Assembly (NCBI GenBank): GCA_023144005.1
Contig: JAGLGN010000020.1
Location: forward strand, 74,941-138,940
Direction of reading: 5' to 3'
Source of the DNA: a bacterium
GTDB lineage: Bacteria > AUK180
DNA: 64,000 bases
Made by a program: the position numbers and the translations under genes. A model generated the notes under the pieces. That model was given only the letters and a program-made list of their open reading frames with translations, did not search any database and was not told the DNA's origin. Below, in pieces: positions 36,325 through 52,688 of this stretch. The first letter of the stretch is position 1. Every line of letters begins with the position of its first letter.

Positions 36325-37283
36325 TCCGATCTCAGCTCCTTGATAAGAATGCCGCCAAGGTAGATCTTGATAACGATCTTTTCACTATGCTTGATCAATT
36401 TATTAATTCGATCACCCCCTTTGAGCTTCTCGGATAAAATGGTCTTTTTGCTGCGCCCTTCATGCAAAACCACCTTGACCCTTTTCGTTCCGAAATAATT
36501 AGGCAGGGTAAAATTCAGATTATAAAATCCATAATCGGTGTTTAGGGGAATGATCCTGTTGATCCCGATCTCAGATGCTTGAGACGAAACAAGGCCTTTC
36601 TGGATCTCAAGGACCATTATTGTGCCCGGCCTCACCACACTGCCCGGCACAAGGCCCTGAAATACCACCGTACCGGAAATATCGCCGCTGGCGCTGATGG
36701 AAAGCCCCATATCTTCGGAAATAGAAGAGATGTAATTGAGATCATTATTCAAGAGATAAGGCACTATCACATGCTTTTTCATCACGCCGTCATTAATATA
36801 TATGTCGATCTCACTCCCCCGCCTGACATTGTCAAAAGGGTCCGGCGACTGGAATATGATCTGATCCTTAAGGTTTACCCTGCCTTTCACGCGGATTATT
36901 CGCCCGACCTTCAAACCCATCCTCATAAGGCTCATATTAGCATTCGAAAGGTCCAGGCCGGTAAGATCAGGACACACGGTCGTATCGTCATTCTGGGATA
37001 CATAGAGTTTAACAGGAAATCCCCGCAATACTTTCTGTCCGTGTTTGGGATGCTGGTAAAACACCGTGGAATCCGGATAATCATAGGTTTTTGAATATTC
37101 AGTATGCACCTTCAAGCCCCGTTTGCGCAATATCGAAGTAGCCGTTTCCAGGACCTCTCCGGTAACAGAAGGTATAATAACCTCTCTTTTTACAAGAAGC
37201 AGATTGACCGAATAGTACCCGCTTAACACGAATACGCCGATACTAAGTACAATTAGAAGGATAACCCTTACCTTTTTCCACAT
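36321..37283 (-). CDS. membrane-anchored PASTA-repeat protein
   Basis: A 320-residue protein with one N-terminal membrane helix, then three PASTA-type repeats (starting VIIPSVTGEVLETA, TVCPDLTGLDLSNA and VIVPYLLNNDLNYI). PASTA domains bind peptidoglycan or beta-lactams, and usually sit on PknB kinases or PBPs; here they stand alone without a kinase. Co-transcription with the following PBP1a gene (4-base overlap) suggests it guides that enzyme. The -10 box lies only 8 bases before the ATG, so the mRNA may be leaderless. Confidence 0.88.
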   Translation of the reverse strand: MWKKVRVILLIVLSIGVFVLSGYYSVNLLLVKREVIIPSVTGEVLETATSILRKRGLKVHTEYSKTYDYPDSTVFYQHPKHGQKVLRGFPVKLYVSQNDDTTVCPDLTGLDLSNANMSLMRMGLKVGRIIRVKGRVNLKDQIIFQSPDPFDNVRRGSEIDIYINDGVMKKHVIVPYLLNNDLNYISSISEDMGLSISASGDISGTVVFQGLVPGSVVRPGTIMVLEIQKGLVSSQASEIGINRIIPLNTDYGFYNLNFTLPNYFGTKRVKVVLHEGRSKKTILSEKLKGGDRINKLIKHSEKIVIKIYLGGILIKELRSE

Positions 37284-37319: not shown

Positions 37320-37359
37320 AAATCTAATAAGGGAATAAATGCGTTTTATACACCTGGTG

Positions 37360-37864
37360 ATCTGATTCATGAATACGGTAACAGTCGTTCCCAAGTGAAC
37401 GAGGTACAAGGTTGGTGCAGAGGAGAATAAGAAAAATAGTGAATAATGGGAGAATAATCGTAGGGGCACGGCATGCCGTGCCCTTCTGAGAGAGTGCGGA
37501 TATTATTTTACAGTTGATTCTAACGGGGCGAAGAGTGTACAATTGCTTCACAATTTTCAACTCTTCGCTTGGAACTTTTGCACCGGGACAGTCGAACTCC
37601 TGCGGAGTACGGCATGTCCCATATCTTGTTTGGGGTGCGGCGTGATATGATTGGAACAGGAGAATTAATGAGTTAAACGAAATATTGATTTTCCGGTTAC
37701 GGGTGTGTTTCTTTTTCCACTTCGTACATCGCACCTAGTACTGTTTTTATCACTTTACACTTCACACTTCACACTTTCTTCTGCACTTGTGCCTTGTTCC
37801 TTCCCCCTGTTCCACTGGGTCCACTTGTCCCTGGGTCCACTGGTGCACTGCGAAACGTGTCCCC
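37360..37864 (+). repeat. composite intergenic repeat, copy A
   Basis: This copy matches 51807-52233 module by module in the same orientation: an opening TCTGATTCATRAATACG, an ATCGTAGGGGC-type segment (here with the inverted pair GGGCACGGCAT/ATGCCGTGCCC), the 138-nt core (37516-37653), a tail ACGAAATATTGATTTTCCGG, a CACTTTACACTTCACAC tract and a closing CTTGTCCCTGGGTCCACTGG. The modules are conserved to different degrees. Apart from this repeat and the two promoters at its edges, the 805-base gap 37284-38088 holds no gene. Confidence 0.75.
37516..37653 (+). repeat. 138-nt core repeat, copy A, with three stem-loops
   Basis: Aligns without gaps to 51939-52076 with three differences in 138 bases by hand count. 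Stem 1: GCGAAGAGT (37528-37536) with ACTCTTCGC (37560-37568), enclosing AATTG/CAATT. Stem 2: GGGACA (37585-37590) with TGTCCC (37615-37620), enclosing ACTCC-TGC-GGAGT. Stem 3: ATATC (37621-37625) with GATAT (37644-37648). It may be a structured RNA, a mobile palindromic element, or a conserved DNA site. Confidence 0.8.
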
Positions 37865-38033
37865 TATCTTACTTCGCTCCAGTGTTCTATTGTTTAAACG
37901 GATGATTCTAATGAAAATAACGAAATATTGATTTTCCGGTTACAGGTGTGTTTCTTTTTCCACTTCGTACCCGCACCTCGAACCTCTTACTGTATTTATT
38001 ACTTTACACTTCACACTTCACACCTCACACTTC
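37676..38033 (+). repeat. tandem copies of the repeat tail
   Basis: The tail module (AACGAAATATTGATTTTCCG..., then TTTCTTTTTCCACTTCGTAC and a TTACACTTCACACTTCACAC tract) occurs at 37676-37777 and again at 37919-38033, so this locus has an extra tail copy compared with the element at 51807. The second copy ends shortly before the promoter at 38052. Confidence 0.75.
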
Positions 38034-38051
38034 TTAATGCTTCACGCTTCT

Positions 38052-38080
38052 TTGCATTAGCAGAGATTCTTTGATATAAT
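38052..38080 (+). promoter_or_regulatory. promoter of the DUF4015-type gene, probably leaderless
   Basis: TTGCAT (38052-38057), a 17-base spacer, TATAAT (38075-38080), then 8 bases to the ATG at 38089. There is no Shine-Dalgarno in that gap. The -35 is a weak match; the -10 is perfect. Confidence 0.65.
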
Positions 38081-38088
38081 AGCATTTC

Positions 38089-39930
38089 ATGAAAAAGACA
38101 TTGAGCATATTACTCCTTATTTCTTCGATCATTCCCCTCTTCGCTCAGGGGGTCTTGATAGATAGAAGAGGCCTGATCTATCGTGAGCATAGTAGTAAAC
38201 TCTATGTGGCTAAAAGCCTCCCCGAGGGAGAGCAAGTCAGGAAACTGGGATGGGACGGAGATGAAAGGTTCTACATCATCACCAAAAAGAATCTCTTTAT
38301 TACTTATGACCGTTTCAAGACAATGCAGGTCTTAACAGAGATTATTCCCCAGGAGGCGGCGATCGGGGAAACGGGAGAGCTCCTTTTTGAGTTCCCTGAA
38401 CTTTCCGATGTTTCTTTCAATGAGACAAATCTCGTAGCTGTCTCCGATTCAACTCTGTTCAGATATTCGTTCGGAGATACAATGGCAGAGAAAGTCAAGA
38501 CCAGAGACGCTTATTACTTCTTCTGCTGTGAGATGGATGATTCCGGTATATATGCAGGCACATCACAAAACGGCGTACTTCATTTCCCATGGGGATCTGA
38601 TGAACAACAGCGGCTCTATAGGGGCTTATCCAATAATTACTATACCAAGGAAACCAATTATTTTGAAGAGGTCATAGGGCTTTTCAGAAAGAACGGAAAG
38701 ATCTACGCGGCGCAGGATTTCGGAATAAATGTTTTCGTCCTGACCGATACAAAGGAATGGCAGCCGCTATCAACTTTCTATGAACAGCATAAGGTCGAGG
38801 ACTTCATGGTAGGCGAAAAATATATCACACTGACCTCGGAAAGCGGAAGCGATCTTCTCTTTATGAACGGTTTAAAATACAAGACAGAGTCAGTTCGGAA
38901 ATTGCCCGACGATTTCATCGCGGGGATCAAATTCGAAGAAGGTGCGGCTTTCCGGCTGCAAAAAGAGCCCGTTGAGAATAATAAACGCGACGGTGTATAT
39001 TCCATTCATATTCCTCCGCATCGCATCCGTGACTTCACTAAGAACATGGAAAAATACAAGAAAATGGGCTTCAACACCGTTGTAATGCCATTCAAGGATG
39101 ATCATGGCTATGTTCTCTTTCCACCTTCATCCCATATTATAAAGAAGGTCGGAGCCGACCATTACAAGTGGAATATGAAGAAAATAATCAAAAGGATCAA
39201 AAAGGGAGGATTCAATGTTGTCGCCCGTGTCGTCTGTTTCAAGGATAAGGTTCTTTTCAAATATGATTCAGGGAGACATGCCTTTGTAAATATTGAGACC
39301 GGAGAACCATGGAAGGGAGCGGAAAAGGAATATTGGGTCGACCCCGGTTCACGATTTACGAGAGAATATGTCCTTGAGATCATCAAAGAGACAGCGCGGC
39401 TCGGTGTATCAGAGATACAGCTTGACTATATCAGATACCCCACAGAGGGAGCCCAGGATATCAGAGGGTCAAGACATATGGAGACACCCATACGCAAGGA
39501 AAAGGTTCTGGCGGCATTTCTGAGAGATGTATCAGCTTCGGTCAACATACCGGTATCTGTAGATGTTTACGGACTCAAGGGATGGTATAACTATGCCGGC
39601 AATCCCGGGCAGGTCATACCACGCTTTGCCGAACATATCGATATTCTCTGCCCAATGCTCTACCCCTCACACTTTGACAGGCGATTCTTTCATAATGAAG
39701 ACCCGCTCACAAGGGTTTACAATATTATTTTTTACGGTGTGAAAAGGAATCTTGAAAAATTTCCCAACCTGGTGATACGTCCGTATATTCAGGCCTTTGC
39801 CAACGGCTCTCCCGAATACTCAAAAGAATATCTGGAGATCCAGATCCGCGCCCTCTACGATGCCGGTGCCTCCGGCTTCACCTTCTGGGGACTTGATATC
39901 CCTGAGGATTTCCGGATACCCGGAATCTAA
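38089..39930 (+). CDS. exported putative glycoside hydrolase (DUF4015-like)
   Basis: A 613-residue protein with signal peptide MKKTLSILLLISSIIPLFAQ. Residues about 20-300 look like a beta-propeller or sensor region. From residue 305 a TIM-barrel domain of the DUF4015 putative glycosidase type follows: YSIHIPPHRIRDF, GFNTVVMPFKDDHGYVLFPP, FNVVARVVCFKDK, IQLDYIRYPTEGAQDIRG, VDVYGLKGWYN and ILCPMLYPSHF. Acidic residues in KDDHG and QLDYIRYP are candidate active-site positions. The real substrate is unknown; a cell-wall or surface glycan is likely because it is divergent from the PASTA/PBP operon. Confidence 0.85.
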   Translation: MKKTLSILLLISSIIPLFAQGVLIDRRGLIYREHSSKLYVAKSLPEGEQVRKLGWDGDERFYIITKKNLFITYDRFKTMQVLTEIIPQEAAIGETGELLFEFPELSDVSFNETNLVAVSDSTLFRYSFGDTMAEKVKTRDAYYFFCCEMDDSGIYAGTSQNGVLHFPWGSDEQQRLYRGLSNNYYTKETNYFEEVIGLFRKNGKIYAAQDFGINVFVLTDTKEWQPLSTFYEQHKVEDFMVGEKYITLTSESGSDLLFMNGLKYKTESVRKLPDDFIAGIKFEEGAAFRLQKEPVENNKRDGVYSIHIPPHRIRDFTKNMEKYKKMGFNTVVMPFKDDHGYVLFPPSSHIIKKVGADHYKWNMKKIIKRIKKGGFNVVARVVCFKDKVLFKYDSGRHAFVNIETGEPWKGAEKEYWVDPGSRFTREYVLEIIKETARLGVSEIQLDYIRYPTEGAQDIRGSRHMETPIRKEKVLAAFLRDVSASVNIPVSVDVYGLKGWYNYAGNPGQVIPRFAEHIDILCPMLYPSHFDRRFFHNEDPLTRVYNIIFYGVKRNLEKFPNLVIRPYIQAFANGSPEYSKEYLEIQIRALYDAGASGFTFWGLDIPEDFRIPGI

Positions 39931-40167
39931 ATGCGAAAAAGATAGTTCAAAAGTTACGCTTCGCAGTGGACCCAGGTACAAGTGGACCCAGTGGAACACG
40001 CTTCGCAGAGCACAAGTGACAAGTGAGAAGAATACAATTAAATGATGGAACACAGAAGGTCTATCTCAAACGATTTATCTCAACTTGGAACCTTGAACCT
40101 TTGAACTTTTGAACAATCTTCTCTACAGAGCAAGGCGTGCCCTGCCCTTGAATACAGAATCATTTAT
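39931..40167. other. intergenic gap with inverted fragments of the repeat
   Basis: No gene seen. Around 39958-40022 it carries TTCGCAGTGGACCCAGG and related pieces, the reverse complement of the closing module of the 37360 and 51807 repeats. Near 40084-40112 is a low-complexity run of variants of TTGAACC, and at 40133-40153 GGCGTGCCCTGCCCTTG. No terminator could be recognised between the two convergent genes. Confidence 0.55.
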
Positions 40168-41562
40168 CTATTTTCTTATCTCCCTCAACTGTTTTTCAAC
40201 AGCCTTAAGCAATGATTTCGCGTCAGCTTCTTTGAATATTCTTCCTGCTTCTATTAAATGATCCTCTGCTTCCTTTTTTTTGTTTAATTTCATCATGATC
40301 CTGGTAAACTCGGCAATACATTCTCCATGTAAGACATCCAAACCTTCCTTTTGAGCAATGCCCATTGCTTCCTTAATAGACTTTATTGATCTTTCAGGAT
40401 CAAATACTACAGCGGCCTTGGCAATTGCAATAAGGGAATTAATTTCATTTGCTTTTGCAGATGCTTGCCGTGAAGCTCCTAAAGCCTTTTCCGCAAAGGC
40501 TAAGGCCTCGGGATATCTTTTTCGCAACGAATTGAGCTCCGAAAATACCTGGTAAGCTTCACTAAGCTGGATCAAACTTTCACTTTTTTCAAATATTTTT
40601 ATTGAACGTTTCAGGTATTTCTCTGCTGACTTCAGATCACTAAGATATAGATAAAGGTGCCCGATATTCATACAGCCTATGCCAATACCTTTTGTATAAC
40701 CTATCTCCTCCGAAATTGAAAGATAGTTTTTGAAATATCTGAGAGCTGTTTTATAATCTTCCCGCTGTGCGTAGATAATTCCAATATTTACAGAGGCGAT
40801 GGCAATTCCTTCCCTAAAGCCAATTTCATTGGAAATAGAAAGGAAGCGTTCAAAATACTTGACTGCCTGATCGGGTTTACCTTTGCCTAAATATATTAAG
40901 CCGATGTCATTAGAAATTTTGCCGATGCTTTGTATCGCATGTATTTCTTCTCCGATCCTGAGAGATCTTTTCATATAATCTAGTGCCCTGTCAAGTTTGC
41001 CTTTTCGCCAGTAGATTGCGCCGATATTAGCCAGAGCGACTCCTACTTGCTCCTTGCTATTGATCTTCTTCATTCTGAAAAGGAATTTGTTAAAATATTC
41101 AAGAGCTTTATCAAGTTCGCCTTTGTTTCGATAGAGCAATCCCATTTCATTATACATTGGTCCTAGCAGTTCGACATCATTTATCTTCTCCAAAATGCTG
41201 ATCGCCTGCTGAAAATACTTTAATGATATGTCGTAATCTCCTTTTCTAAGGAAAATAAGCCCTGCGGTTTTTAAAGCCATGCCATAACTCTCGGATTTAT
41301 CTGTATTTTTTGTTTTCTCAATTGCCATATTCGCGTATTTCAATGCTTTCGAATAATCACTTTTATGCTCGCACAATATATTTGAATAAGACATTATGGC
41401 ATCGATCCGGAATTTCCAATGGACTTTATCGCTTTCCTTGCAATGTGATATTATGTGATCATGATCCTTCAGGGCATCATCAACTTTTCCGATAAGCTTA
41501 TATATTTCACCCCGCTTTTGCAATGCCGAATAATAATGAGTTATCCGCTCTTCCTGCATCAT
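40168..41562 (-). CDS. cytoplasmic TPR-repeat protein
   Basis: A 464-residue protein made almost wholly of about ten TPRs in 40-residue steps (for example YDISLKYFQQAISILEKIND, LDRALDYMKRSLRIGEEI, YKTALRYFKNYLSISEEIGY). There is no signal peptide and no membrane segment. The repeat type is the one usually found C-terminal to kinase-AAA or adenylate-cyclase modules in large signalling proteins; here it begins abruptly, with an in-frame TAA shortly before the start, so it may be a stand-alone scaffold or the remnant of a larger gene. ATGATG gives two possible starts. No convincing promoter was found. Confidence 0.75.
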   Translation of the reverse strand: MMQEERITHYYSALQKRGEIYKLIGKVDDALKDHDHIISHCKESDKVHWKFRIDAIMSYSNILCEHKSDYSKALKYANMAIEKTKNTDKSESYGMALKTAGLIFLRKGDYDISLKYFQQAISILEKINDVELLGPMYNEMGLLYRNKGELDKALEYFNKFLFRMKKINSKEQVGVALANIGAIYWRKGKLDRALDYMKRSLRIGEEIHAIQSIGKISNDIGLIYLGKGKPDQAVKYFERFLSISNEIGFREGIAIASVNIGIIYAQREDYKTALRYFKNYLSISEEIGYTKGIGIGCMNIGHLYLYLSDLKSAEKYLKRSIKIFEKSESLIQLSEAYQVFSELNSLRKRYPEALAFAEKALGASRQASAKANEINSLIAIAKAAVVFDPERSIKSIKEAMGIAQKEGLDVLHGECIAEFTRIMMKLNKKKEAEDHLIEAGRIFKEADAKSLLKAVEKQLREIRK

Positions 41563-41667
41563 AGAAAAGGTACCTGGTCTTTATTTTTTATGCGAGTCGT
41601 GATACTCGTATCCGTCCAATATATCTGTATATTACCGGCCTATTCAACTGTTACACCATACATTATA

Positions 41668-42108
41668 TCACCCTGATATCAAATTCATAATAAAAAATAT
41701 GATAAGTGGATATGCTAAGATAGTCACGCCTGACAAATAAGGCCTCCCCGCCTCTTTGAGCAGAAAACCTGTTTTTCTATCTCTCTTCTTATCGATTAAG
41801 ATCCCGACAACTATTAGAAGTACAATGAATGGGATATCAATAAACAAGTTTCTATTCGCTAATAACGGAAAACCACGAGGCAAAATGGTCCTTACTAAAA
41901 GCAATGGTCCGAATGTTCGGAGGGTAATTATGGTTAAGCGCGGAAGAAAAGCAATTATTATTGCGTACATTATTGCAATTAACAGTACAATAGAAATCTC
42001 TTTGTTCATCGAAAATATAAATAGGGAAACACAGGATAAAATTGAAAGCAATAATAGAATATAGAACAGAATACTCAAATGCGTCTTATCTATTTTTCTA
42101 ACTTTCAT
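41668..42108 (-). CDS. small integral membrane protein, unknown function
   Basis: A 146-residue protein with about four membrane segments (ILFYILLLLSILSCVSLFIF, ISIVLLIAIMYAIIIAFL, FIDIPFIVLLIVVGILI and ILAYPLIIFFIMNLI) separated by basic loops such as DKKRDRKTG. No family recognised. A TATAAA sits 5 bases before the ATG, but no good -35 was found. It is 105 bases upstream of the TPR gene on the same strand and could be in the same transcript. Confidence 0.65.
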   Translation of the reverse strand: MKVRKIDKTHLSILFYILLLLSILSCVSLFIFSMNKEISIVLLIAIMYAIIIAFLPRLTIITLRTFGPLLLVRTILPRGFPLLANRNLFIDIPFIVLLIVVGILIDKKRDRKTGFLLKEAGRPYLSGVTILAYPLIIFFIMNLISG

Positions 42109-42287
42109 CTTGCTTTATAAATTCCCAAATCGGCATATCTTCATATATGCAACTTTTGCAACTACCGGCCCTGTTTTTTGCACTTGTTTCTCCATTTGTA
42201 AACAGCTCTCTCTCCAGTGTAATTATACCATAACCGGAAAGAGAATCCAAAAACGTGACACGCTATACGTCATACGTCACACGGCTA

Positions 42288-42316
42288 TTGACTACTAAAA
42301 AGATTTTTAGTATACT
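42288..42316 (+). promoter_or_regulatory. promoter of the DnaE-like gene, probably leaderless
   Basis: TTGACT (42288-42293), a 17-base spacer, TATACT (42311-42316), then 7 bases to the ATG at 42324. This fixes the start codon: a longer frame beginning at 42255 would start upstream of the promoter. The preceding bases 42252-42282 are a low-complexity tract of TACGTCA/GTCACAC variants. Confidence 0.72.
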
Positions 42317-42323
42317 GATATAT

Positions 42324-45071
42324 ATGGACATACACTGGAGCGAATACTCATTCCTTCAAGGCTTCTCAACGACAAAGGATATATGCAGGTATGAAGGGGA
42401 TAATGTCTTTGTCTTAGCGGATATCGAGGCCTTCTGGGGGTTGAGCGAACTCTACACTCACAGCAAGAGCGGCATATGGGGAAATACCATAATGACAGAA
42501 GCGAAAGAGCCGCTCATCTTCATCCCCACCAACAAAAAAGAAATGATGGTACTGTCGGAAATAGTGTCGATATTAAGGAGCGGAGAAGACATAGAAAGAG
42601 ACCGTGTCTTTTCACATTTTGAAAAACTGCCGCCGGTCCTCTACTCTCCCCTTATCCCCAAAGAGGTGTATGATCTTCTCAAGGAAAGGGCGGCAGAAAT
42701 CTTTCCCCTTGAAAAATGCGGGGCAAAGATCATCAATGCGGTGACAAAAAGAGACATCATGGCCGCGTCACTACTTAAAAAGATCCCCCCGAAATACAAG
42801 GACATGGATGATACGAAGATAAAGGAATTTCTCTCTTGCGTAAAAAGAAGCATAGACCTGAACGAAAGAAGGATACCTGCTTTCTGCGGTGATGACAATG
42901 CCCTTTTGAGACAGAAGTGCCTGAAAAGCCTTCACAATATCTCAAGAGCGGGCAAGGGCCATAAATATATGGAGCGTTTCAAATATGAGTATTCCGTCAT
43001 CACCGACAAACAGCTGGCGGGATATTTTCTGATAGTATCGGATATGGTCAATTGGGCCAGATCCCGGGGCATATATGTCGGCCCCGCGCGCGGCTCCGCC
43101 GCCGGGGCATTGGTATCCTTTCTTTTAGGGATCACGGATATCGACCCTATCCGTTTCAGCTTGACCTTTGAACGCTTTCTTAACCCCTCAAGGGAAGAAC
43201 TGCCGGATATCGATCTTGATTTCTCACATACCAGGCGAAAGGAGGTCTTTCGGTATATGGAGGAACGCTATGGGAAGGAAAAGACCGGACATCTTTCCAC
43301 CATAGTGAGATTCGGCTGGCGCGGGGCTCTCAGACATCTTCAAAGAGAGATGAACTGGGAGATGAAGAGAGTAAAGATGCTGACGGCGCATATGCCCACA
43401 TACTTCAAAGGGAACATGGCGGGCCTGTGCAGCACACATCCGCTTGTTGCTGATATGATATCTCGTGACAGCGTGGCAAAAAAGTATGTGCAGACGGCCG
43501 AACTGCTGGTAGGCAGACCCCATACCTTTTCGGTGCACCCTTCCGGCTATTTCGTCCTCAATTCACCTGTTTCCGAGTTATCGCCGCTGCACCCGGGAGA
43601 TAACGGAGAGAAGATATCGCATATTACAAAAGATACAGAGCTGAAGATACTGAAAATAGACTGCCTCGGCCTGAGATATCTCAATGTCGTGTGTGAGACC
43701 GCGGCGGATGCGGGGCATGACCCCATGAATTTCATAAATACGGTTAACAGATCGAATAAACACGCCTATGCCCTCTTGAAAGAAGCGAATACACAAGGTA
43801 TCTTTCAATTGGAAAGCGCCGGGGTACGAAGTTATCTCAAAAAACTTGCTCCGGTAAATATAGAGGATATGATAGCCATCGTATCCCTGTACCGCCCGGG
43901 CCCGCTTTCCGCGGGGGTCATAGGGCATTATATCAAACGCCGAAAGGGTGAGGAGGCCGCAGACCCGGTTCATCCCGCGCTCACTGATATTCTCGCTATA
44001 ACATACGGCATCATCGTATTTCAGGAACAGGTAATGAAGATAGGTGTCAAACTTGCCGGCTTCAACTGGTCGGAGGCCAATGTGCTCCGCCGCGCCATGG
44101 CGGCCAGAGACCGTAAGAAGATGGCGAGGATGAAAGAAAGATTTATAAAAGGGATGGCCGAAAACAATACCGGCAATAGCCGGGAAGCAGCAGAGATCTG
44201 GACTTTTCTGGAAAAATTCGCCTCCTACGGATTCAATAGGTCACATGCCGCAGGGTACGGCCTTCTAGCATACTGCTGCGCCTATCTCAAGGCCAATGAA
44301 CCGCTTTTTTACTTCAAGAACCTGCTGAATAATTTCATTGATATGCCGGGAGTGATCCAAAATTATATATTCGATGCCGCAAGGAATAAGATAGAGGTTG
44401 TGCCCCCGGATATAAACAGGAGCCAAGCGTTCTTCTCGATCTCAGAGGGCCGTATAATATCCGGTTATCTCTCCATTAAAGGCATCAGCATCAAATGGGC
44501 GAAGCACCTGGAGGAGATCTCCTCATCCTCAGCCGCGGTATTTCCTTCCTTGGAAAGCTTTTACCGAAGAGCGGTCGAAACAGGCAATAAGCCGCCGGCG
44601 GACATTATGCTGGCATTGATACAGGCGGGGGCATTTTGCTTTTACGGGCCGATGGAGCAGCTCACACAGAGCTACTACAGGGCGGCAGCCGGAGAGAAGG
44701 CGGGAGAACTCTTCAGATACAGGGATAGGACGGTATTTACCGAAAAGTCAAGCGTATATTATAACGGTGATTTTCTCAATTATATCTTTCGTCTTCCGCT
44801 GATCTATAAGATCAACGGCAATATCGTGAGTATTAGGGGCTATGTAACCAAATACAGGAGGATACGGACAAAACAGGGTAAGTGGATGGTATTTATCACC
44901 ATGGCCAATCAATGCAGGGAATTTGAATGCACATTGATGCCGAAGATCGCGGAGAAATTTCTCAGAGAAAGGGATCCGTCAAAACCGCTATATATAAAAG
45001 GGGTATATGACAGCGACCGTGGCTGTATCAATGTAAACGATCTCAGGACCGCTTTGGTTTCCTTTGCTTGA
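42324..45071 (+). CDS. DnaE-family DNA polymerase III alpha-like protein with reduced PHP domain
   Basis: A 915-residue C-family polymerase. The N-terminus MDIHWSEYSFLQGFSTTKDI aligns with the PHP opening (HVHSEYSLLDG), but one metal histidine is tryptophan and the domain is roughly 100 residues short. The polymerase core is intact: GPARGSAAGALVSFLLG, the aspartates of PDIDLDF, KIDCLGLRYLN, FQEQVMKIGVKLAGF and FNRSHAAGYGLLAYCCAYLK. A C-terminal OB fold follows (VSIRGYVTKYRRIRT). Size and reduced PHP suggest an accessory or error-prone (DnaE2/ImuC-like) enzyme; no imuA or imuB is adjacent. The end overlaps the opposite dGTPase gene by 29 bases. Confidence 0.88.
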   Translation: MDIHWSEYSFLQGFSTTKDICRYEGDNVFVLADIEAFWGLSELYTHSKSGIWGNTIMTEAKEPLIFIPTNKKEMMVLSEIVSILRSGEDIERDRVFSHFEKLPPVLYSPLIPKEVYDLLKERAAEIFPLEKCGAKIINAVTKRDIMAASLLKKIPPKYKDMDDTKIKEFLSCVKRSIDLNERRIPAFCGDDNALLRQKCLKSLHNISRAGKGHKYMERFKYEYSVITDKQLAGYFLIVSDMVNWARSRGIYVGPARGSAAGALVSFLLGITDIDPIRFSLTFERFLNPSREELPDIDLDFSHTRRKEVFRYMEERYGKEKTGHLSTIVRFGWRGALRHLQREMNWEMKRVKMLTAHMPTYFKGNMAGLCSTHPLVADMISRDSVAKKYVQTAELLVGRPHTFSVHPSGYFVLNSPVSELSPLHPGDNGEKISHITKDTELKILKIDCLGLRYLNVVCETAADAGHDPMNFINTVNRSNKHAYALLKEANTQGIFQLESAGVRSYLKKLAPVNIEDMIAIVSLYRPGPLSAGVIGHYIKRRKGEEAADPVHPALTDILAITYGIIVFQEQVMKIGVKLAGFNWSEANVLRRAMAARDRKKMARMKERFIKGMAENNTGNSREAAEIWTFLEKFASYGFNRSHAAGYGLLAYCCAYLKANEPLFYFKNLLNNFIDMPGVIQNYIFDAARNKIEVVPPDINRSQAFFSISEGRIISGYLSIKGISIKWAKHLEEISSSSAAVFPSLESFYRRAVETGNKPPADIMLALIQAGAFCFYGPMEQLTQSYYRAAAGEKAGELFRYRDRTVFTEKSSVYYNGDFLNYIFRLPLIYKINGNIVSIRGYVTKYRRIRTKQGKWMVFITMANQCREFECTLMPKIAEKFLRERDPSKPLYIKGVYDSDRGCINVNDLRTALVSFA

Positions 45072-46083
45072 GCTTTTTATAGAGCTTTTCCGCTTCAATA
45101 TCGGAAAGAGAAGCGATATGATCCACAACATTCTGCGAAAAACCGTCCTTCTCAAAGAACTGCTTGCAGATCTTTAAAAAGTGATCTGGCTCCTTATGAA
45201 AATATTTGTAGATAAACATGGTCATTTGCGCGCCGCGATCCGTATATTTCGCTATCTTCGGGTGAGGATAAACGGTTTTGTAAAGAAAATCTTTGAGTAT
45301 ATTCATTCCCTTCAGTACATGATCGGGGATAAGGATCTGACCCTTATCGTAACTCTCCTGAACAATGCCTTCGACCATTGAATCGATACGGAGAGAATAA
45401 CGGCTTCCCAGCAGTTTCGAGGCCTTTCTGGGAATATCTCCCGGTTTTATGATGCCCGCAATGATCGCATCATCGATATCATGATTGATATACGCGATCG
45501 AATCGGAGATCCTGACAATGACCCCTTCAAGTGTGATGGGCGTATTGAAGGTACTCATATCACGCTGAAGATCACTGGGACCCTTTGAATGTTTCACAAT
45601 ACCGTCCAGCACTTCCGCAGTGAGATTAAGTCCCTTTCCCCTCTTTTCCAGCTTCTCAACTACTCTCAGAGAATGAAGAGAATGCTTGAATCCCTTTGAA
45701 AATAGCTCCGCAAGAGCTTTCTCGCCCGCATGGCCGAATGGGGTATGTCCGAGATCATGACCCAACGCTGACGCCTCTGCCAGATCTTCATTGAGCCGCA
45801 AAGCGCGGGCAATTGTCCGGGCGATCTGCGATACGGTGATCGTATGTGTCAGCCGGGTCCTGTAGAAGTCCTTCTCCGGGGAGATAAAGACCTGTGTTTT
45901 GTGTTTTAATTTCCGAAAGGCCTCTGAATGTACGATCCTGTCACGGTCACGCTGAAACGCCGTTCTCACTGCGGAGGGTTTTTCTTTTCTCCTGCGGCCC
46001 AGTGTTTTACTGCTCTTTGCAGCGAATTTACTTAAATTCTTTTCTTCTATGATCTCAAGCTGCTTTTTAATATCTATATTCAT
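45043..46083 (-). CDS. deoxyguanosinetriphosphate triphosphohydrolase-like protein
   Basis: A 346-residue HD-domain enzyme. Family signature HSEAFRKLKHKTQVF is followed by the metal ligands: H in RLTHTITVSQIA, HD in ALGHDLGHTPFGH and D in RISDSIAYINHDIDD. It removes triphosphate from dGTP or other dNTPs, tuning pools for replication. The start overlaps the DUF167 stop (ATGA), and its 3' end overlaps the DnaE-like gene by 29 bases tail to tail. Confidence 0.93.
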   Translation of the reverse strand: MNIDIKKQLEIIEEKNLSKFAAKSSKTLGRRRKEKPSAVRTAFQRDRDRIVHSEAFRKLKHKTQVFISPEKDFYRTRLTHTITVSQIARTIARALRLNEDLAEASALGHDLGHTPFGHAGEKALAELFSKGFKHSLHSLRVVEKLEKRGKGLNLTAEVLDGIVKHSKGPSDLQRDMSTFNTPITLEGVIVRISDSIAYINHDIDDAIIAGIIKPGDIPRKASKLLGSRYSLRIDSMVEGIVQESYDKGQILIPDHVLKGMNILKDFLYKTVYPHPKIAKYTDRGAQMTMFIYKYFHKEPDHFLKICKQFFEKDGFSQNVVDHIASLSDIEAEKLYKKLKQRKPKRS

Positions 46084-46328
46084 TTGTACAAAGCCCCGAT
46101 ATCCGTTCCATCCGGAATCTCCAAAACCTTATCTCTGGTGGAAGCACCCTTAATAATGGTTATAGAGGTCTTTTGGATGGACAATTCTCCGGACAGATAT
46201 TGTATGAGCTCTTTATTTGCTTTGCCGTCGGCGGGCGGTGAGTTCAGATATACCCTGATCACGCCGTCATTGCCTGTTTTGATCATCTTTTTGCGGGCTT
46301 TCGGTATGACTTTTATCTTTAATTTCAC
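46080..46328 (-). CDS. DUF167 (YggU) family protein
   Basis: An 82-residue protein with the DUF167 signature NSPPADGKANKELIQYLS and SITIIKGASTRDKVLEI. Biochemical function is unknown in the family. It starts with GTG inside the divIVA gene, overlapping it by 62 bases in another frame; the N-terminal MKLKIKVIPKARK is part of the family core, so the long overlap appears real rather than a wrong start. Confidence 0.88.
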   Translation of the reverse strand: MKLKIKVIPKARKKMIKTGNDGVIRVYLNSPPADGKANKELIQYLSGELSIQKTSITIIKGASTRDKVLEIPDGTDIGALYK

Positions 46329-46932
46329 TTTTTATCTCATTTACTATTTTCTGAAGTTCCCCTGCCTTTTTTTGAAAGAAGTGCTTCAATTCCTTGAGAA
46401 GTTCGTCCCTGTAAGTTTTCAACCGGTTCACTTCACTGAGATATGTGGATTTCATTTCTTCCATTTCGGAAAGCAGCTTCGCTTTCATCGCGGCCGCTTC
46501 TTCCGTGGTCTGCTTTGAACCTTCGGTCGCCTTATCAAGGATCTCCTTGGCATTCTTCTCCGCCGCTGCGATCTTATCTTCCGCTTCCTTTTGCGCTCTT
46601 AATCTTAAGTCTTCTCCCATGGTCTGGGCATTCATTATGGCGGAATTCATCTTCTCTTCCATCTCTTTGTAGCGGGTCAACTCCTCCACAAGACGAGATA
46701 CCTTTTCATTAAGCAGGGCATTTTCACGGAAAAGATCTTTATAATTCTCGTATACTTCGGTAATGAATTCATTTACCTCATTAACATCGTATCCCTTCAG
46801 TTTTTTAGAAAACTCTTTGTTCTTTAATTCGATCGGGGTTAATTTCCCTACAATATCCTGTTTCTTTTTTGCCCAATCAAGCAAATTATCATTGTTCTTC
46901 TGCGGCATGCCTTTATCCAATTCTCTACTCAC
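46267..46932 (-). CDS. DivIVA-domain protein
   Basis: A 221-residue coiled-coil protein. The DivIVA domain lies at residues about 32-95: LTPIELKNKEFSKKLKGYD, VNEVNEFITEVYENYKDL, then long heptad helices. DivIVA proteins mark curved membranes and recruit division or growth factors. It starts with GTG (GAGG 7 bases upstream) and overlaps the thrS stop by 8 bases. The C-terminal 20 codons also encode the start of the DUF167 gene in another frame. Confidence 0.9.
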   Translation of the reverse strand: MSRELDKGMPQKNNDNLLDWAKKKQDIVGKLTPIELKNKEFSKKLKGYDVNEVNEFITEVYENYKDLFRENALLNEKVSRLVEELTRYKEMEEKMNSAIMNAQTMGEDLRLRAQKEAEDKIAAAEKNAKEILDKATEGSKQTTEEAAAMKAKLLSEMEEMKSTYLSEVNRLKTYRDELLKELKHFFQKKAGELQKIVNEIKSEIKDKSHTESPQKDDQNRQ

Positions 46933-48814
46933 TGTTCAACCTCTTTTTGACGATCTCTACGAAATTGTCAATAGTCATCGCTTCCATCTGGCCTTCCCGT
47001 CTTCCGGTCGGCTTTATCAATGAACCGCTCTTTTCACTTTCGCCAACAACAATAAAATAGGGTGTCTTGTTCAATCTGGCCATGCGCACCTTATATCCAA
47101 GCCTCTCGTTCCTAAGATCTACCTCTACCCTCAATCCTGCCGCTTCGAGTTTCTCCCGAACCTCCTGCGCATATGGCTGCAGATCATCGTTTACTGGTAA
47201 AATGACGCATTGGACTTGAGAAAGCCAAAGCGGGAAATCACCCTTATAATGTTCGATCAAAACGCCGAAGAAACGCTCAAGAGAACCCAAGAGGGCTCTG
47301 TGGATCAGTATCGGGCGTTCCTTTTCACCTTTGTCATTTACGAAGTCAATATTAAAACGCTCGGAAAGATTGAAGTCAAATTGTATGGTAGTGGTCTGCC
47401 ACTCTCTGCCGATGGCATCCTTGATCTTGATATCGATCTTCGGGCCATAGAACGCGCCGCCGCCCTCATCAACCTCATATGGGATGTCGTACTTCTTAAC
47501 GGCGTTTTCCAATGCCTCTTCCGCCTTCTCCCAATCCTTAGGATCACCGACCGCCTTCTCGGGCATCGTGGAAAGGTACACCTTGAAATCCTTGAAACCG
47601 AATTTCTTTATGAAGAAAACGGAGAAATCAAGTAATTTGTATACTTCCTCGGCAAGATGCTTCCTCTCACAGAAGATGTGAGCGTCATCCTGTGTGAACC
47701 CTCTGACACGCATAAGGCCGTGCAGAACTCCGGATTTTTCGTATCTATATACTGTTCCCAGCTCCGCATACCTTATGGGCAGTTCTTTATAACTTCTCAG
47801 TTTTTCTTTAAATATGAGGATATGGAACGGACAATTCATCGGCCGTATCAGGTATTCATCCCCTTCGGGAAATTCCATATCGGGAAAGAGATTTTCACGG
47901 TAGAACTCATAATGTCCGGAGGTCTCCCATAAATGACGCTTGGCGACATGCGGAGTGTAGAGGAGGTCATAGCCCTCTTTAATATGCTCTCTTTTCCAGA
48001 GGTCCTCTATCTGCATTCTCATATAAGCGCCACGGGGCTTCCAGAACACCAGACCGGGGCCGGCTTCGGGAAAGATCGAAAAGAGGTCAAGGTCTTTTCC
48101 AAGCTTCCTATGATCCCTTTCCGCGGCTTCTTTGATGAAATCCATGTACCCGTTCATCTCATCTTTACTGCGAAAGGATATTCCGTAAAGGCGCTGAAGC
48201 ATCTTATTCTTTTCATCTCCGCGCCAATAGGCACCGGCAACTGATAATACCTTGAAACTCTTTATCAGTCCGGTATGAGCCAAATGCGGGCCGCGGCAAA
48301 GATCAAAGAAATCATCCTGTTTGTAGATGGTTACATTGGGATCCTCTATCTCGGAAATGATCTCCACCTTGTAGGGATTGCCTGCATCGGAATAGATCTT
48401 CTTCAATGCTTCGGTGGATATCTCTTCTTTGTATAATTTTATCTTTTCCTTAACTATCTTTTTGAATTCCGCTTCTATCTTGGGAAAATCCTCTTCGGTG
48501 ATCTTAGCCTCTGTATCAATGTCATAATAGAAGCCATGTTCGATCGCGGGACCGATGGCGAGCTTAACATCCTTGTAGATCCTTTTGATGGACTGCGCCA
48601 TAATATGCGCGGATGTGTGCCAGAAAATATGCTTCCCCTGATCACTCTCATAATATATGGGTGCGAGTTTATCGCCGTCCTTTATTTCAGTGGACAGATC
48701 AACACTCTCTCCGTTAATTTCAAATGCGATAACCAAACCGCCTTTATTAAGCTCATTGAACAATTCCGCCTTATCGGCGAAATCAACTGGCTTTCCATCC
48801 AGGGTAACCTTCAT
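46925..48814 (-). CDS. thrS: threonyl-tRNA synthetase
   Basis: A 629-residue full-length class II synthetase. N-terminal TGS domain (residues 1-60); editing domain with HTSAHIMAQ (HxxxH) and DLCRGPHLAHTG (CxxxH); catalytic core with RPMNCPFHILIFKEKLRS (zinc cysteine), YEKSGVLHGLMRVRGFTQDD and HRALLGSLERFFG; C-terminal anticodon-binding domain. GGAG lies 6 bases before ATG. There is no T-box leader: the gap to cvpA is only 9 bases. Confidence 0.98.
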   Translation of the reverse strand: MKVTLDGKPVDFADKAELFNELNKGGLVIAFEINGESVDLSTEIKDGDKLAPIYYESDQGKHIFWHTSAHIMAQSIKRIYKDVKLAIGPAIEHGFYYDIDTEAKITEEDFPKIEAEFKKIVKEKIKLYKEEISTEALKKIYSDAGNPYKVEIISEIEDPNVTIYKQDDFFDLCRGPHLAHTGLIKSFKVLSVAGAYWRGDEKNKMLQRLYGISFRSKDEMNGYMDFIKEAAERDHRKLGKDLDLFSIFPEAGPGLVFWKPRGAYMRMQIEDLWKREHIKEGYDLLYTPHVAKRHLWETSGHYEFYRENLFPDMEFPEGDEYLIRPMNCPFHILIFKEKLRSYKELPIRYAELGTVYRYEKSGVLHGLMRVRGFTQDDAHIFCERKHLAEEVYKLLDFSVFFIKKFGFKDFKVYLSTMPEKAVGDPKDWEKAEEALENAVKKYDIPYEVDEGGGAFYGPKIDIKIKDAIGREWQTTTIQFDFNLSERFNIDFVNDKGEKERPILIHRALLGSLERFFGVLIEHYKGDFPLWLSQVQCVILPVNDDLQPYAQEVREKLEAAGLRVEVDLRNERLGYKVRMARLNKTPYFIVVGESEKSGSLIKPTGRREGQMEAMTIDNFVEIVKKRLNSE

Positions 48815-48823
48815 CTTAAACTC

Positions 48824-49270
48824 CTATTGGAGAAATCCTCTGAAAACAGGGAAATACAACACTGATCCCTTAACATATTCCCCAATGCCACCGCCGATCT
48901 GCAGCATAATATACATCACGACCATTATTAAAAGAGAGGACAGGATAATGCCGAAACCGCCTCCCAGAATAGAATCAATTATCTTCAATGGTGTGACATT
49001 AATAAAATTCTTTATGATGAACGCTATGAGTCCTATCACAAGAAGATACAATAAAAACGCGATTATATAACCCACCCAGGGTTTTTCGCCAACGATCCTG
49101 ACCATTCCCGAGCCGAAGATCTTAATGATGGGTAAACTGAAATTGAATGACATCCACATGGATGTAACGATTGCAAATACGGGAAGCAGAACCCCGAGAA
49201 TGCCCTTTTTCCAAAAGACCACTGCACCGGAAATGATGAGGATGGAGCCGATCAGATCAAATAGATTCAT
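48824..49270 (-). CDS. CvpA-family membrane protein
   Basis: A 148-residue protein with four predicted membrane helices, beginning MNLFDLIGSILIISGAVVFW, the typical CvpA opening, with a conserved glycine segment LKIIDSILGGGFGIILS. CvpA proteins are linked to colicin V export and envelope integrity. It overlaps the DHH gene by 14 bases and precedes thrS by 9. Confidence 0.82.
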   Translation of the reverse strand: MNLFDLIGSILIISGAVVFWKKGILGVLLPVFAIVTSMWMSFNFSLPIIKIFGSGMVRIVGEKPWVGYIIAFLLYLLVIGLIAFIIKNFINVTPLKIIDSILGGGFGIILSSLLIMVVMYIMLQIGGGIGEYVKGSVLYFPVFRGFLQ

Positions 49271-50423
49271 CGAACGCCTCTAAAAAGATTCTCCTGAAGT
49301 CCTTTTCATGTTCGGCATCAAATAGACAGCCGGCTGCGCGCGGATGGCCGCCCACAGAGCCGTAAGGGAAATCTTTATCCTTTACTTTCAGCATCATCTG
49401 CACCAGATTCTTATCGGCGTTCTCACCTTCTCTTATCTCACCGGAAATTTCTGTTCCGAATTGATTGAGAATGAGAACCACCTTATTGGGATGATCCTTG
49501 ACAAGATTAGAAGCGATCACTCCCAGAATATAATGCGATGTATCGATCTTATAGATTATCAACTCGCGGTCGGGACAAAACTCCGCCAGTTCACTTGAGG
49601 CGGCATAAATTCTCTGTATTTCTTCTCTCAATTCCCGCCTCTTTCTTGTCAGGTCGGCGGAAACATCATCGCCTGAATAAATAAAAGAGGGGTCATTCAG
49701 CTCCAGGGCTTTTGCCAGGACACGGAAAGCGGTTGCTTCATGCATGTCGGGATGATGGAAGAATCCGGCATTGACATAATACACGCATTTTTCCAGAAGA
49801 TTCTTGTAGTCATGGCCTTCCAATGGCTCCAATAACTCAGGATTCTCTTTCTGAATAATCTCTTGAAGCTCGGTATATTCATCAGAAAAGAATGCGTGGT
49901 CACCGCGAAGCCCGATCGCCGCCAGCCATGCGTATTCCTCCTTGAAGAATCGGCGGTTAAGCTCATATCCGAAGAATGACGCAGGATGCCATATATTTTC
50001 ATACCCCAGCATTCTCGCATTTATATACTCGATAGAATGAGGGATCGTATCCCTGTAATCCTCACCGATATTATGATGGTCATACATGAAGATAGCGTCA
50101 ATGGTCGCTGACCAATGATGAAGCAGGTCACGCTCCTTACCCAGGTCAAGGTCGGTTACAATGAGAATGTCTGGAGAGATACTGTCTATTAAAGCCCTTT
50201 CCTGTTTCATTTTGTAGGATTTGGTTGAAACCCAGATAATATGCTCAAGGGGAGCTTGAGTGAGTTTTTCGACAATACGGGTAATATAGAGCCCGGATGT
50301 CACACCATCCGCGTCGCCGTGATGCACGAGGACAACCTTCTTTCCGGGAGATATCTTCTGCTTGAAGAACTTCTCCGCTGCATCTATCATTTCTTCCCAA
50401 TCGAGATAATTCCAATGTACCAT
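49257..50423 (-). CDS. DHH-family phosphoesterase (RecJ/NrnA-like)
   Basis: A 388-residue protein. DHH motifs are VLVHHGDADGVTSG, VTDLDLGKERDLLHHW and FMYDHHNIGEDYRD; the C-terminal DHHA1 motif is SVGGHPRAAGCLFD. Family members are manganese-dependent exonucleases, nanoRNases or cyclic dinucleotide phosphodiesterases; the exact substrate cannot be told. The ATG is preceded by AGGAAAG and by the promoter at 50450-50478, making it the first gene of the run down to the dGTPase. Confidence 0.9.
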   Translation of the reverse strand: MVHWNYLDWEEMIDAAEKFFKQKISPGKKVVLVHHGDADGVTSGLYITRIVEKLTQAPLEHIIWVSTKSYKMKQERALIDSISPDILIVTDLDLGKERDLLHHWSATIDAIFMYDHHNIGEDYRDTIPHSIEYINARMLGYENIWHPASFFGYELNRRFFKEEYAWLAAIGLRGDHAFFSDEYTELQEIIQKENPELLEPLEGHDYKNLLEKCVYYVNAGFFHHPDMHEATAFRVLAKALELNDPSFIYSGDDVSADLTRKRRELREEIQRIYAASSELAEFCPDRELIIYKIDTSHYILGVIASNLVKDHPNKVVLILNQFGTEISGEIREGENADKNLVQMMLKVKDKDFPYGSVGGHPRAAGCLFDAEHEKDFRRIFLEAFDESI

Positions 50424-50449
50424 TATTCTTTCCTAAATTTTTATGGGGT

Positions 50450-50478
50450 ATTATACGATAAACACGAAGTTATTTCAA
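50450..50478 (-). promoter_or_regulatory. promoter of the DHH-cvpA-thrS operon
   Basis: Minus strand: TTGAAA (50478-50473), a 17-base spacer and TATAAT (50455-50450), 26 bases before the ATG at 50423. This leaves room for a short leader holding AGGAAAG. Confidence 0.78.
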
Positions 50479-50600
50479 ATAATGATGCTGTATCAAGGAT
50501 AATTGGTGAAGGTAATTGCAAATAGGTAATTATTTGACCGGATCGGGGGCGATAGATCAACAGATTTTCGAGACAAACTGTTTTTCACTCCAATCTCACA

Positions 50601-50634
50601 GTTGCACGATTTCGTAATTACGAAATCGTGCAAC
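50601..50634. repeat. perfect 34-bp palindrome
   Basis: The left half GTTGCACGATTTCGTAA is followed directly by its exact reverse complement, with no loop. It lies in the 427-base gap 50424-50850 between divergent genes, 123 bases upstream of the DHH -35 box. It lacks a T-run and loop, so it is not a standard terminator. Confidence 0.9.
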
Positions 50635-50696
50635 CACCTTATAAATACGCGGGATTATCCTTACTTACATTACTTGCGGGCAATATGCATATCATT

Positions 50697-50728
50697 GTAC
50701 TTTCGTATTTAGCTAAATACGAAAGTAC
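50697..50728. repeat. perfect 32-bp palindrome inside a 142-bp inverted-repeat element
   Basis: The left half GTACTTTCGTATTTAG is followed directly by its exact reverse complement. Around it, TATCCTTACTTA (50656-50667) and TAAGTAAGGATA (50786-50797) are perfect 12-bp inverted arms, and a further ATTAC/GTAAT pair continues after a one-base offset. The arms plus centre resemble a miniature mobile element. Confidence 0.85.
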
Positions 50729-50806
50729 TATTTTCACCCTCGTCTCACATATAATAATTGAAACGTTATCTCTCGTTTTTGGTAATAAGTAAGGATACCC
50801 TCTGAT

Positions 50807-50835
50807 TTGACTTATTGGACTTTTCTCATTACAAT
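50807..50835 (+). promoter_or_regulatory. promoter of the GGDEF gene
   Basis: TTGACT (50807-50812), a 17-base spacer and TACAAT (50830-50835). The TTG start codon follows 15 bases later, so the leader is under 10 bases, with GGGGG at 50841-50845 as the only possible ribosome site. Confidence 0.75.
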
Positions 50836-50850
50836 ATATTGGGGGTATGA

Positions 50851-51738
50851 TTGAAACGGAACATTGTCATCTTTGACTCGGAGAGCGGAGGATTCGCCCG
50901 ATTGAACCTTATTTTCAGAAATAATTTCAACTGTCATCATTATAATAATTATTCCCTGCACATTGAAATGCTGAAAAATCAGGATGTGGATCTTTTTCTT
51001 TTTATCATTCACAAGACGGACGGCGAGGCCTTTGAGCTCCTGAAGAAGATACATGAATCTCCCAAGCTGAATGTAATCCCCAAGATCACAATTGCGGACG
51101 AGATGAATCTCGATCTGGAGATACGCCTTGTATCCCTGGGGGTAATGTATTTCTTTACTCCCGATTATGATGTAAAACGCTTTTACAGGACAGTGGATAA
51201 TTTAGTAAGGTTCTACAGTCTGGTAACGCAGATCAATCCCCTTTCCCTGCTTCCGGGCAATCTTGAGATCCGCCGAATAATTTCACGGGGTCTTGAGAAT
51301 AAGGATGACTTGATCGTGGGATGGGCGGATATTGACAACTTCAAAGTATTTAACGATACATTGGGGTATTTTGAAGGAGACCGGATAATCAAGATGACCG
51401 CGTGGCTGTTGATGGACATGGTGAAGACCCATGATGCAGCGGGCTTTGTAGGCCATATCGGGGGTGATGATTTCACCTTTCTTGTGAAACGGAAACTGGG
51501 CAAGCCCATCGGTAAGGATATTGTAAATTTCTTTGATCTGATCATCCGATCCCAATACGGGCTTCTGGAATTGGAGAGCATAGGCAATAAGTCATTGAAC
51601 ATCCCCGAGATACTGACCATTACGGTTGCAATGACCCCATTGAGCAAACACAGAACAATATACGATATAAGCAAACACCTTGCTCATTTAAAAGAGCAAT
51701 TGAAGGGAGAGCCGGAATCTAATTACTCCATTTCCTGA
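50851..51738 (+). CDS. receiver-like plus GGDEF-domain protein, possibly degenerate
   Basis: A 295-residue protein starting with TTG. Residues 1-120 fold like a receiver (NIVIFDSES), but the phosphoacceptor region reads LFIIHKTDGEAF, without the usual aspartate. The GGDEF domain follows: GWADIDNFKVFNDTLGYFEG and the active-loop variant HIGGDDFTFLV, with GGDDF in place of GGDEF/GGEEF. Active diguanylate cyclases normally need Asp/Glu then Glu at those positions, so activity is doubtful; GTP or c-di-GMP sensing is possible. An ATG at 50847 is in the wrong frame. Confidence 0.85.
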   Translation: MKRNIVIFDSESGGFARLNLIFRNNFNCHHYNNYSLHIEMLKNQDVDLFLFIIHKTDGEAFELLKKIHESPKLNVIPKITIADEMNLDLEIRLVSLGVMYFFTPDYDVKRFYRTVDNLVRFYSLVTQINPLSLLPGNLEIRRIISRGLENKDDLIVGWADIDNFKVFNDTLGYFEGDRIIKMTAWLLMDMVKTHDAAGFVGHIGGDDFTFLVKRKLGKPIGKDIVNFFDLIIRSQYGLLELESIGNKSLNIPEILTITVAMTPLSKHRTIYDISKHLAHLKEQLKGEPESNYSIS

Positions 51739-51806
51739 GGGATCTCTGAGAATATTCCGATCTTATCGACCGAGATCCTGGGAATTCTGAATTCAAGGTC
51801 TAGCGT

Positions 51807-52233
51807 TCTGATTCATAAATACGATAACAATGATGATAAGGGCAAAAGCGACAAGAGCACAAGTGGGTAGGGATAAGAAAAGAAGGAAATAATCAGAAAT
51901 ATTCGTAGAGACATGTATTGAGGATGACGATAGCGCTTGATTCTAATGGGGCGAAGAGTGTACAATTGCTTCACAATTTTCAACTCTCCGCTTGGAACTT
52001 TTGCACCGGGACAGTCGAACTCCTGCGGAGTACGGCGTGTCCCATATCTTGTTTGGGGTGCGGCGTGATATGATTGTGACACGATAATTTAATGATAATT
52101 ACGAAATATTGATTTTCCGGTTACGGATGTGAATATTGCTTTGTTCTCCTCACTTTACACCTCACACTTCACACTTCACACTCTTTGGTGCACTTGTCCC
52201 TGGGTCCACTGGTGCACTGCGAAGCTTGTCCCC
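51807..52233 (+). repeat. composite intergenic repeat, copy C
   Basis: It has the same module order as 37360-37864: TCTGATTCATAAATACG, ATTCGTAGAGAC, the 138-nt core, ACGAAATATTGATTTTCCGG (52101), a CACTTTACACCTCACAC tract, and CTTGTCCCTGGGTCCACTGG (52192), ending 3 bases before the stop of the convergent YkgJ gene. Apart from it, the gap 51739-52235 shows no gene. Confidence 0.75.
51939..52076 (+). repeat. 138-nt core repeat, copy C
   Basis: Three differences from 37516-37653 in 138 ungapped positions. Stems 2 and 3 are fully kept (GGGACA 52008-52013 with TGTCCC 52038-52043). Stem 1 has one changed base (CTCTCCGC), giving an A-C mismatch. All three changes would be non-synonymous in the only shared open frame (minus strand), so it does not look protein-coding. 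Confidence 0.8.
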
Positions 52234-52235
52234 TT

Positions 52236-52688
52236 TCAAGTACCGTTATAGAGTTTATCCGGGTCACCGAACACCTTTTCGCCCTCGGCCAACATATCGA
52301 GGATCCGTTCTCTTGGAACAGGATCACCCTCGCCAAGTCCGGGACATTGCAGGTATTCGTAATTGAATAACTCCTTGTCCGATATTATCCTCGGCCAGAA
52401 AGGGTATGTCCTGCATTGTATCGGGCGGGCCTCATATACGGAACACTTCCCTTTCTCGGTGAGAAAGATGCACTCCGTTATACTTCGCTTATCCTTCAGG
52501 ATATATCTGTCATTGCGTCTTATCGTGTACTCTCTTTTAAATAATTCGGGGGCAACCTTCAAGAGCGCCGCTATTTCTGCGATCTCATTCTCTGAGATCC
52601 AAACATAACCGTCACCACGGCAGCAGCGACTGCAGCCGTCAATACAGGAAAAACGAAGGCCTTCTTCGGGAATATCAAAATTTGGCAT
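52236..52688 (-). CDS. YkgJ-type CxxC cluster protein
   Basis: A 150-residue protein from the ATG at 52688 (AGGTGG upstream), overlapping the acyltransferase gene by 14 bases; the longer frame lies inside that gene and is unlikely. The cysteine pattern CIDGCSRCC, then CIFLTEKGKCSVYEARPIQC and a late CPG match the YkgJ/UPF0153 family of zinc or iron-sulfur proteins. Function unknown. Confidence 0.85.
   Translation of the reverse strand: MPNFDIPEEGLRFSCIDGCSRCCRGDGYVWISENEIAEIAALLKVAPELFKREYTIRRNDRYILKDKRSITECIFLTEKGKCSVYEARPIQCRTYPFWPRIISDKELFNYEYLQCPGLGEGDPVPRERILDMLAEGEKVFGDPDKLYNGT

Follow-up and report, generated by a model that had tools for sequence, protein, structure and literature searches.

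The two nearly identical hairpin-forming sequences in the 64,000-nt stretch of bacterial DNA analyzed here (the window) belong to an abundant, undescribed repeat family in an uncultured phylum. We use S for the full hairpin-rich 192-nt repeat, G000 for the genome of the window and G001 for its congeneric sister. S is probably a non-autonomous, MITE-like intergenic repeat that has moved partly in composites bounded by a second repeat, T, and has been scrambled by recombination.

The original prediction was of a non-coding 138-nt sequence, almost identical at two intergenic sites and able to form three stem-loops, that would be either a recently spread palindromic element or a conserved structured RNA or DNA module. 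The near-identity was borne out: 37516-37653 and 51939-52076 align without gaps and with exactly three differences in 138 (C/T at position 9, T/C at 50 and A/G at 99; BLAST E = 3e-63), copy 2 being 97.8% identical to copy 1 over this part. The 138-nt core is real but its coordinates were too short, the repeat being 192-193 nt; S runs about 54 nt further 3′, ending ...GGTTACGG(A/G)TGTG, and the window copies are 93% identical across 194 nt (37516-37707 against 51939-52131). The features of the two sites are:

36321-37283, reverse strand: gene for a PASTA-domain protein, flanking copy 1
37356-37386, forward strand: T-element remnant upstream of copy 1, its left terminal inverted repeat (3 mismatches)
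37516-37707, forward strand: S copy 1, full 192 nt, its first part being the 138 nt above (covariance-model match G000:C13:112456-112647, 229 bits; BLAST)
37528-37568, forward strand: stem 1 of copy 1, GCGAAGAGT 37528-37536 with ACTCTTCGC 37560-37568 (93% of cells paired, 62 copies)
37585-37620, forward strand: stem 2 of copy 1, GGGACA 37585-37590 with TGTCCC 37615-37620, nested ACTCC/GGAGT
37621-37648, forward strand: stem 3 of copy 1, ATATC/GATAT (79% of cells paired, zero double-sided changes)
37655-37698, forward strand: stem 4 of copy 1, outside the 138 nt, AACaGGAGAATTAAT with ATTGATTTTCCgGTT (78% of cells paired)
about 37855-37950, forward strand: half copy, the 3′ part of S with the second type of 3′ module, TTACTTCGCTCC... 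(nhmmer profile positions 142-274; sequence)
38089-39930, forward strand: gene for a DUF4015 putative glycosyl hydrolase, flanking copy 1
50851-51738, forward strand: gene for a GGDEF-domain protein, flanking copy 2
51802-51832, forward strand: T-element left terminal inverted repeat preceding copy 2 (26 nt without a mismatch)
51939-52131, forward strand: S copy 2, full 193 nt (covariance-model match G000:C13:126879-127071, 208 bits)
52236-52760, reverse strand: gene for a CxxCxxCC zinc/iron-chelating domain protein, flanking copy 2

Copy 1 lies between divergent genes and copy 2 between convergent ones, and a left T end precedes each of them by about 105-160 nt. The half copy begins within the right arm of stem 2. 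Intergenic DNA at 37700-38050, at 52130-52230 and at many loci is pieced together from short repeat phrases (CACTTTACACTTCACACTT, CTTGTCCCTGGGTCCACTGG, CTTCGTACCTCGTACTTCG, TTGTCCATTGTCAATTG and GGATTCCCGCTTTCGCGGGAATGACA), and at orthologous sites these phrases are often wholly different between G000 and G001.

We searched the 2.67-Mb, 38-contig G000 assembly with the 138-nt sequence and found 41 BLAST matches. A covariance model gave 106 matches in G000 and 123 in G001, counted at E up to 0.1 and taking in partial copies and other core types. The model found one marginal match (E = 0.0125) and none convincing in five further genomes of the phylum, and no S match was found by BLAST in 39 other relatives or by exact-pattern scan of viral contigs. 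The same kind of scan of genome contigs, which may omit the window's own genome, returned only the sister, the MAG ‘bacterium isolate RS_12_30 ZL285.bin.30’ (JAGLWT01). As far as these collections show, the S family appears to be genus-specific. Its copies are intergenic and show no bias in gene orientation: in G000 the neighboring genes are both forward at 11 copies, convergent at 10, divergent at 9 and both reverse at 8.

Alignment of 62 distinct full copies gave lengths of 190-193 nt and a mean pairwise identity of about 81%. S starts with a conserved TGATTCTA and has a conserved 3′ end, CGAAATA..GATTTTCCGGTTACGGRTGTG; these ends are not mutually inverted, and S by itself lacks terminal inverted repeats. 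The stems named in the original prediction are all present. Stem 1 takes two main forms, GCGAAGAGT..ACTCTCCGC with the inner stem AATTG/CAATT and GCAAAGAGT..ACTCTTTGC with a different loop. Stem 2 is the most conserved part of S, its outer GGGACA/TGTCCC arm nearly invariant in the 62 copies and its inner pair GC in 47 and UA in 15. The 3′ half also has two forms, TTG.TTGGGGT.CGGCGTGATATG and TTACTTCGCTCCGGCGTTCTAT, the common end following both; stem 3 is lost in the second. The lack of coding was confirmed, with no frame open in more than 23 of the 62 copies, and protein coding was rejected for want of a conserved frame. An attC-like reading of the S ends was dropped by eye, the second core type described below (S2) having no conserved core triplets.

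The RNA fold of 37495-37720 reaches -69 kcal/mol, where shuffled sequences give -55.6 (z = -3.4). Its long-range helix GCACC/GGTGC, seen in copy 1, is lost in most copies and was dropped as a conserved feature. Over the alignment 87% of the cells are paired (column shuffles give 85%, slid controls 35-43%), and 61 cells have double-sided changes where 28 are expected; both sides of a pair change in 25 copies for stem 1 and in 15 for stem 2, and three pairs of stem 4 also show such changes. These pair counts support structure, but the double-sided changes cluster in block types and so represent few events.

Some copies are joined or broken. At one locus (L073, 6964-7146) two tandem pieces of S meet at GTGTG, and at the G001 site orthologous to L050 the 5′ flank joins the 3′ flank at GTGTG, hinting that this may be a boundary repeat of S. 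At L089 (about 7242-7667), L121 and L227, 100-170 nt of intergenic phrases separate the two arms of stem 2 in the S copy, and the 3′ part begins ...GGTGCACTGCGAAGCTTGTCCC, like the half copy in the window.

Scanned for across G000, the 3′ end turned up at 61 places, of which about 30 did not fall in an S copy recognized beforehand. Many of these extra places carry a different core, S2 (GGGACGGAGGTGGTGAATTTTTCAAC...GTTAAAATATTCAACCTnCCGTCCC), that shares the 3′ end of S and, where intact, its TGATTCTA start. Since S and S2 share ends and differ in core, the family is defined by its ends and the cores are exchangeable. There are at least two interchangeable cores, each with a GGGAC(A/G)G hairpin; the core hairpin of S2 starts GGGACGG...CCGTCCC and that of S1 GGGACAG...TGTCCC. 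An autonomous form of S was also sought at the loci fetched around the 3′-end matches, which have no protein-coding cargo inside S; two 3′ halves that follow a common sequence proved to be of the S2 core type, and no transposase gene was present.

Occupancy of sites was compared between the sister genomes, whose flanking genes are mostly 93-96% identical. Orthologous loci were located through short gene pieces adjoining the copies, and both flanks were aligned. From G000 to G001, 9 of 24 testable sites are occupied and 15 empty. The reverse comparison gave 1 occupied and 10 empty of 11, a ratio biased toward empty because the set omits six G001 loci whose pairing had been established before, so that the G000-to-G001 set is the fair one. 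At the site of copy 1, G001 keeps the T-end remnant and lacks S; at that of copy 2 a whole 476-nt block is missing. Most empty sites hold unrelated repeat phrases in the sister and no clean pre-insertion sequence. Presence and absence are unpolarized, there being no outgroup copy, and loss of S in the sister genome instead of gain is possible. In a tree of the copies the two species interleave (18 label changes, 20.9 in shuffles), which places expansion of the family before the species split. The predicted recent spread therefore stands in part: spread is evident in the many intergenic copies and in their varying occupancy between two close genomes, and presence at sites is still changing, but the amplification began before the split.

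At the occupied orthologous sites, partners are not always nearest relatives. L028/L082 and L023/L074 behave as orthologues, whereas the L010/L081 partners are 77% identical (rank 53) and the L017/L075 partners 87% (rank 19). The L017/L075 copies agree from stem 2 through the 3′ end and differ in their stem-1 modules; those of L010/L081 agree in stem 2, down to the rarer T-A inner pair, and differ in stem 1 and the 3′ half. These differing modules account for the poor identity ranks, and they are direct evidence that modules are exchanged between dispersed S copies.

T is a MITE-like repeat of about 273 bp (units of 271-274 nt) with inverted-repeat ends AGTGtTCTGATTCATAAATACG, which have also been given as AGTGTTCTGATTCATAAATACG. 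G000 contains 122 matches to its ends. Within one T copy the two ends match each other better than ends taken across copies (11.85 against 10.77 of 16), which partly reflects subfamily structure. The complete T units seen, at 271-274 nt, are too short for a transposase. Some are inserted inside S and S2; at other loci T ends bracket S to form composites of 397-426 nt, and those at L007, L008 and L095 have complementary ends. These three T-S-T composites are present in one genome only (L007/L096, 410 against 24 nt; L008/L110, 418 against 34 nt; L095/L232, 422 against 11 nt), with the length difference stopping near the T ends; by inspection, no clear target-site duplication was seen at L007, L008 or L095. 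Their absence from the other genome makes it likely that S has dispersed at least partly by transposition in T-bounded units. Of 66 copies whose flanks are complete, only about 18 have a T end placed as in the composites, not counting cases with T inserted inside S, so other routes must act, for example recombination among the intergenic repeat phrases; carriage by T may account for only part of the spread of S.

These observations can be assembled into a mechanism. S would be the inner part of a mosaic mini-element family with conserved ends and an interchangeable core. It would reach new sites inside T-bounded composites through a transposase acting in trans, and the T ends would decay after arrival. 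The modules of stems 1 and 2 and the 3′ half would then be shuffled between copies at different sites, by gene conversion or by template switching, the route of this exchange being our inference. Against the whole scheme, no transposase is tied to T or S.

A resident transposase of another kind might serve instead. Five Y1_Tnp genes occur in G000 (L041, L042, L043, L044 and L045, on contigs C25, C33, C13 and C1), the nearest NCBIfam model being ‘REP-associated tyrosine transposase’, although the proteins score at or below its cut-off. Such HUH (Y1) transposases of the RAYT/TIRYT type could move S as hairpin-containing single-stranded DNA, in the manner of REP/TIR repeats, with the GGGAC(A/G)G hairpin as recognition site and TACATC, 5′ of its foot, as a guide pairing with the 3′-terminal GRTGTG. 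All five genes are bracketed by inverted repeats GGGACG...CGTCCC, four of them read directly, which the opening of the S2 core hairpin matches and that of S1, with A for G, resembles; TIRYT genes are described as having inverted repeats that share a GGGGWSAS motif (PMC3733652). RNAalifold, unprompted, pairs TACATC with the 3′ end, and this prediction together with the hairpin likeness suggests a possible link between S and the Y1 genes. However, several kb around each of the five genes contain no S match, Y1 genes are in seven of seven genomes of the phylum and S in two, the guide pairing hardly covaries (6 copies have C-A at columns 71/196), and no TACATC guide stands at the corresponding place in S2. 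We consider this route unlikely, and hold as more doubtful again the proposal that S is a new type of single-strand-DNA element, mobilized by TIRYT-class HUH enzymes, with a fixed-length body, swappable cores and a hexamer guide pairing with its 3′ terminus. At L044 the 3′ end of the Y1 ORF contains the right GGGACG-type repeat. The G001 orthologue of the L042 gene (L227, G001:C54:54600-57200) retains only a degenerate Y1 fragment, beside an interrupted S copy. A TnpB-linked (omega-RNA) element was rejected, with no PF07282 match in G000.

Alternatively, S might be kept at each locus for a function of its own, as a structured RNA or a site bound by protein, such as a regulator, terminator or chromosome-organizing site; its stable fold, nearly invariant stem 2, strict length and the pair changes in stems 1 and 2 all speak for this. 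On the other side, S lies at random with respect to neighboring genes, the sister has no S at most of the orthologous sites that could be tested, stem 3 is lost in copies with the second 3′-module type, and the double-sided changes mostly track two or three block-swapped module types instead of independent compensation. Nor is a known RNA family recognizable: the window has no Rfam match at the gathering threshold, and five loci gave chance-level matches only. The structured-RNA half of the original prediction is thus disfavored, and we regard a per-locus function as improbable. An artefact of assembling or binning repetitive MAG contigs has in its favor that both genomes are drafts and several copies are at contig ends; it is very improbable given that the family is in two separate genome records, most copies are inside long contigs with unique flanking genes, and several sites are common to both genomes. 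Least credible is a simple local duplication of the 138 nt. Within the set compared, the window copies are indeed mutual nearest relatives (93.2% over the full element), but the other species has relatives nearly as close (92.7%), and some 40 further copies in G000 and many in the sister already refute it, excluding the case of only two copies in the genome.

Among known systems, compared by description, S is most usefully set beside three. Like the BOX elements of Streptococcus, with their boxA-boxB-boxC plan (PMC3049150), it is short, intergenic, modular, hairpin-forming, present in many copies and narrow in host range, with conserved ends and interchangeable inner modules; S1 and S2 share the 3′ end and TGATTCTA start around exchangeable cores. 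Unlike BOX, it has no tandem inner module of variable number, is fixed at 190-193 nt and occupies an unrelated host. T and T-S-T resemble MITEs such as Correia elements in ending in inverted repeats, in keeping nearly to one size (273 nt for T, about 400-425 nt for the composite), in lacking a transposase ORF and in being polymorphic between relatives, while S alone, without terminal inverted repeats, and the lack of a clear target-site duplication depart from that pattern. REP/BIME sequences and the TIR repeats of RAYT/TIRYT (PMC3733652; PMC6006769) are likewise intergenic palindromes in genomes with several Y1 genes, and the GGGACG...CGTCCC repeats that bracket these genes in G000 resemble the S core hairpin. 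Unlike REP/BIME, S is 192 nt with several hairpins, does not lie next to Y1 genes and is missing from relatives that possess them; no GTAG/GTGG tag lies 5′ to the hairpin foot, where stem 2 instead has TACATC or TGCACC.

What is new here is the abundant repeat family itself; short, modular, non-autonomous intergenic repeats are a known general kind. The sister pair shows rapid gain and loss of repeats and exchange of modules, and the swaps can be read directly at orthologous sites. For repeats of this kind the family also carries a warning, that apparently ‘compensatory’ pairs can reflect block exchange and do not necessarily indicate a functional RNA.
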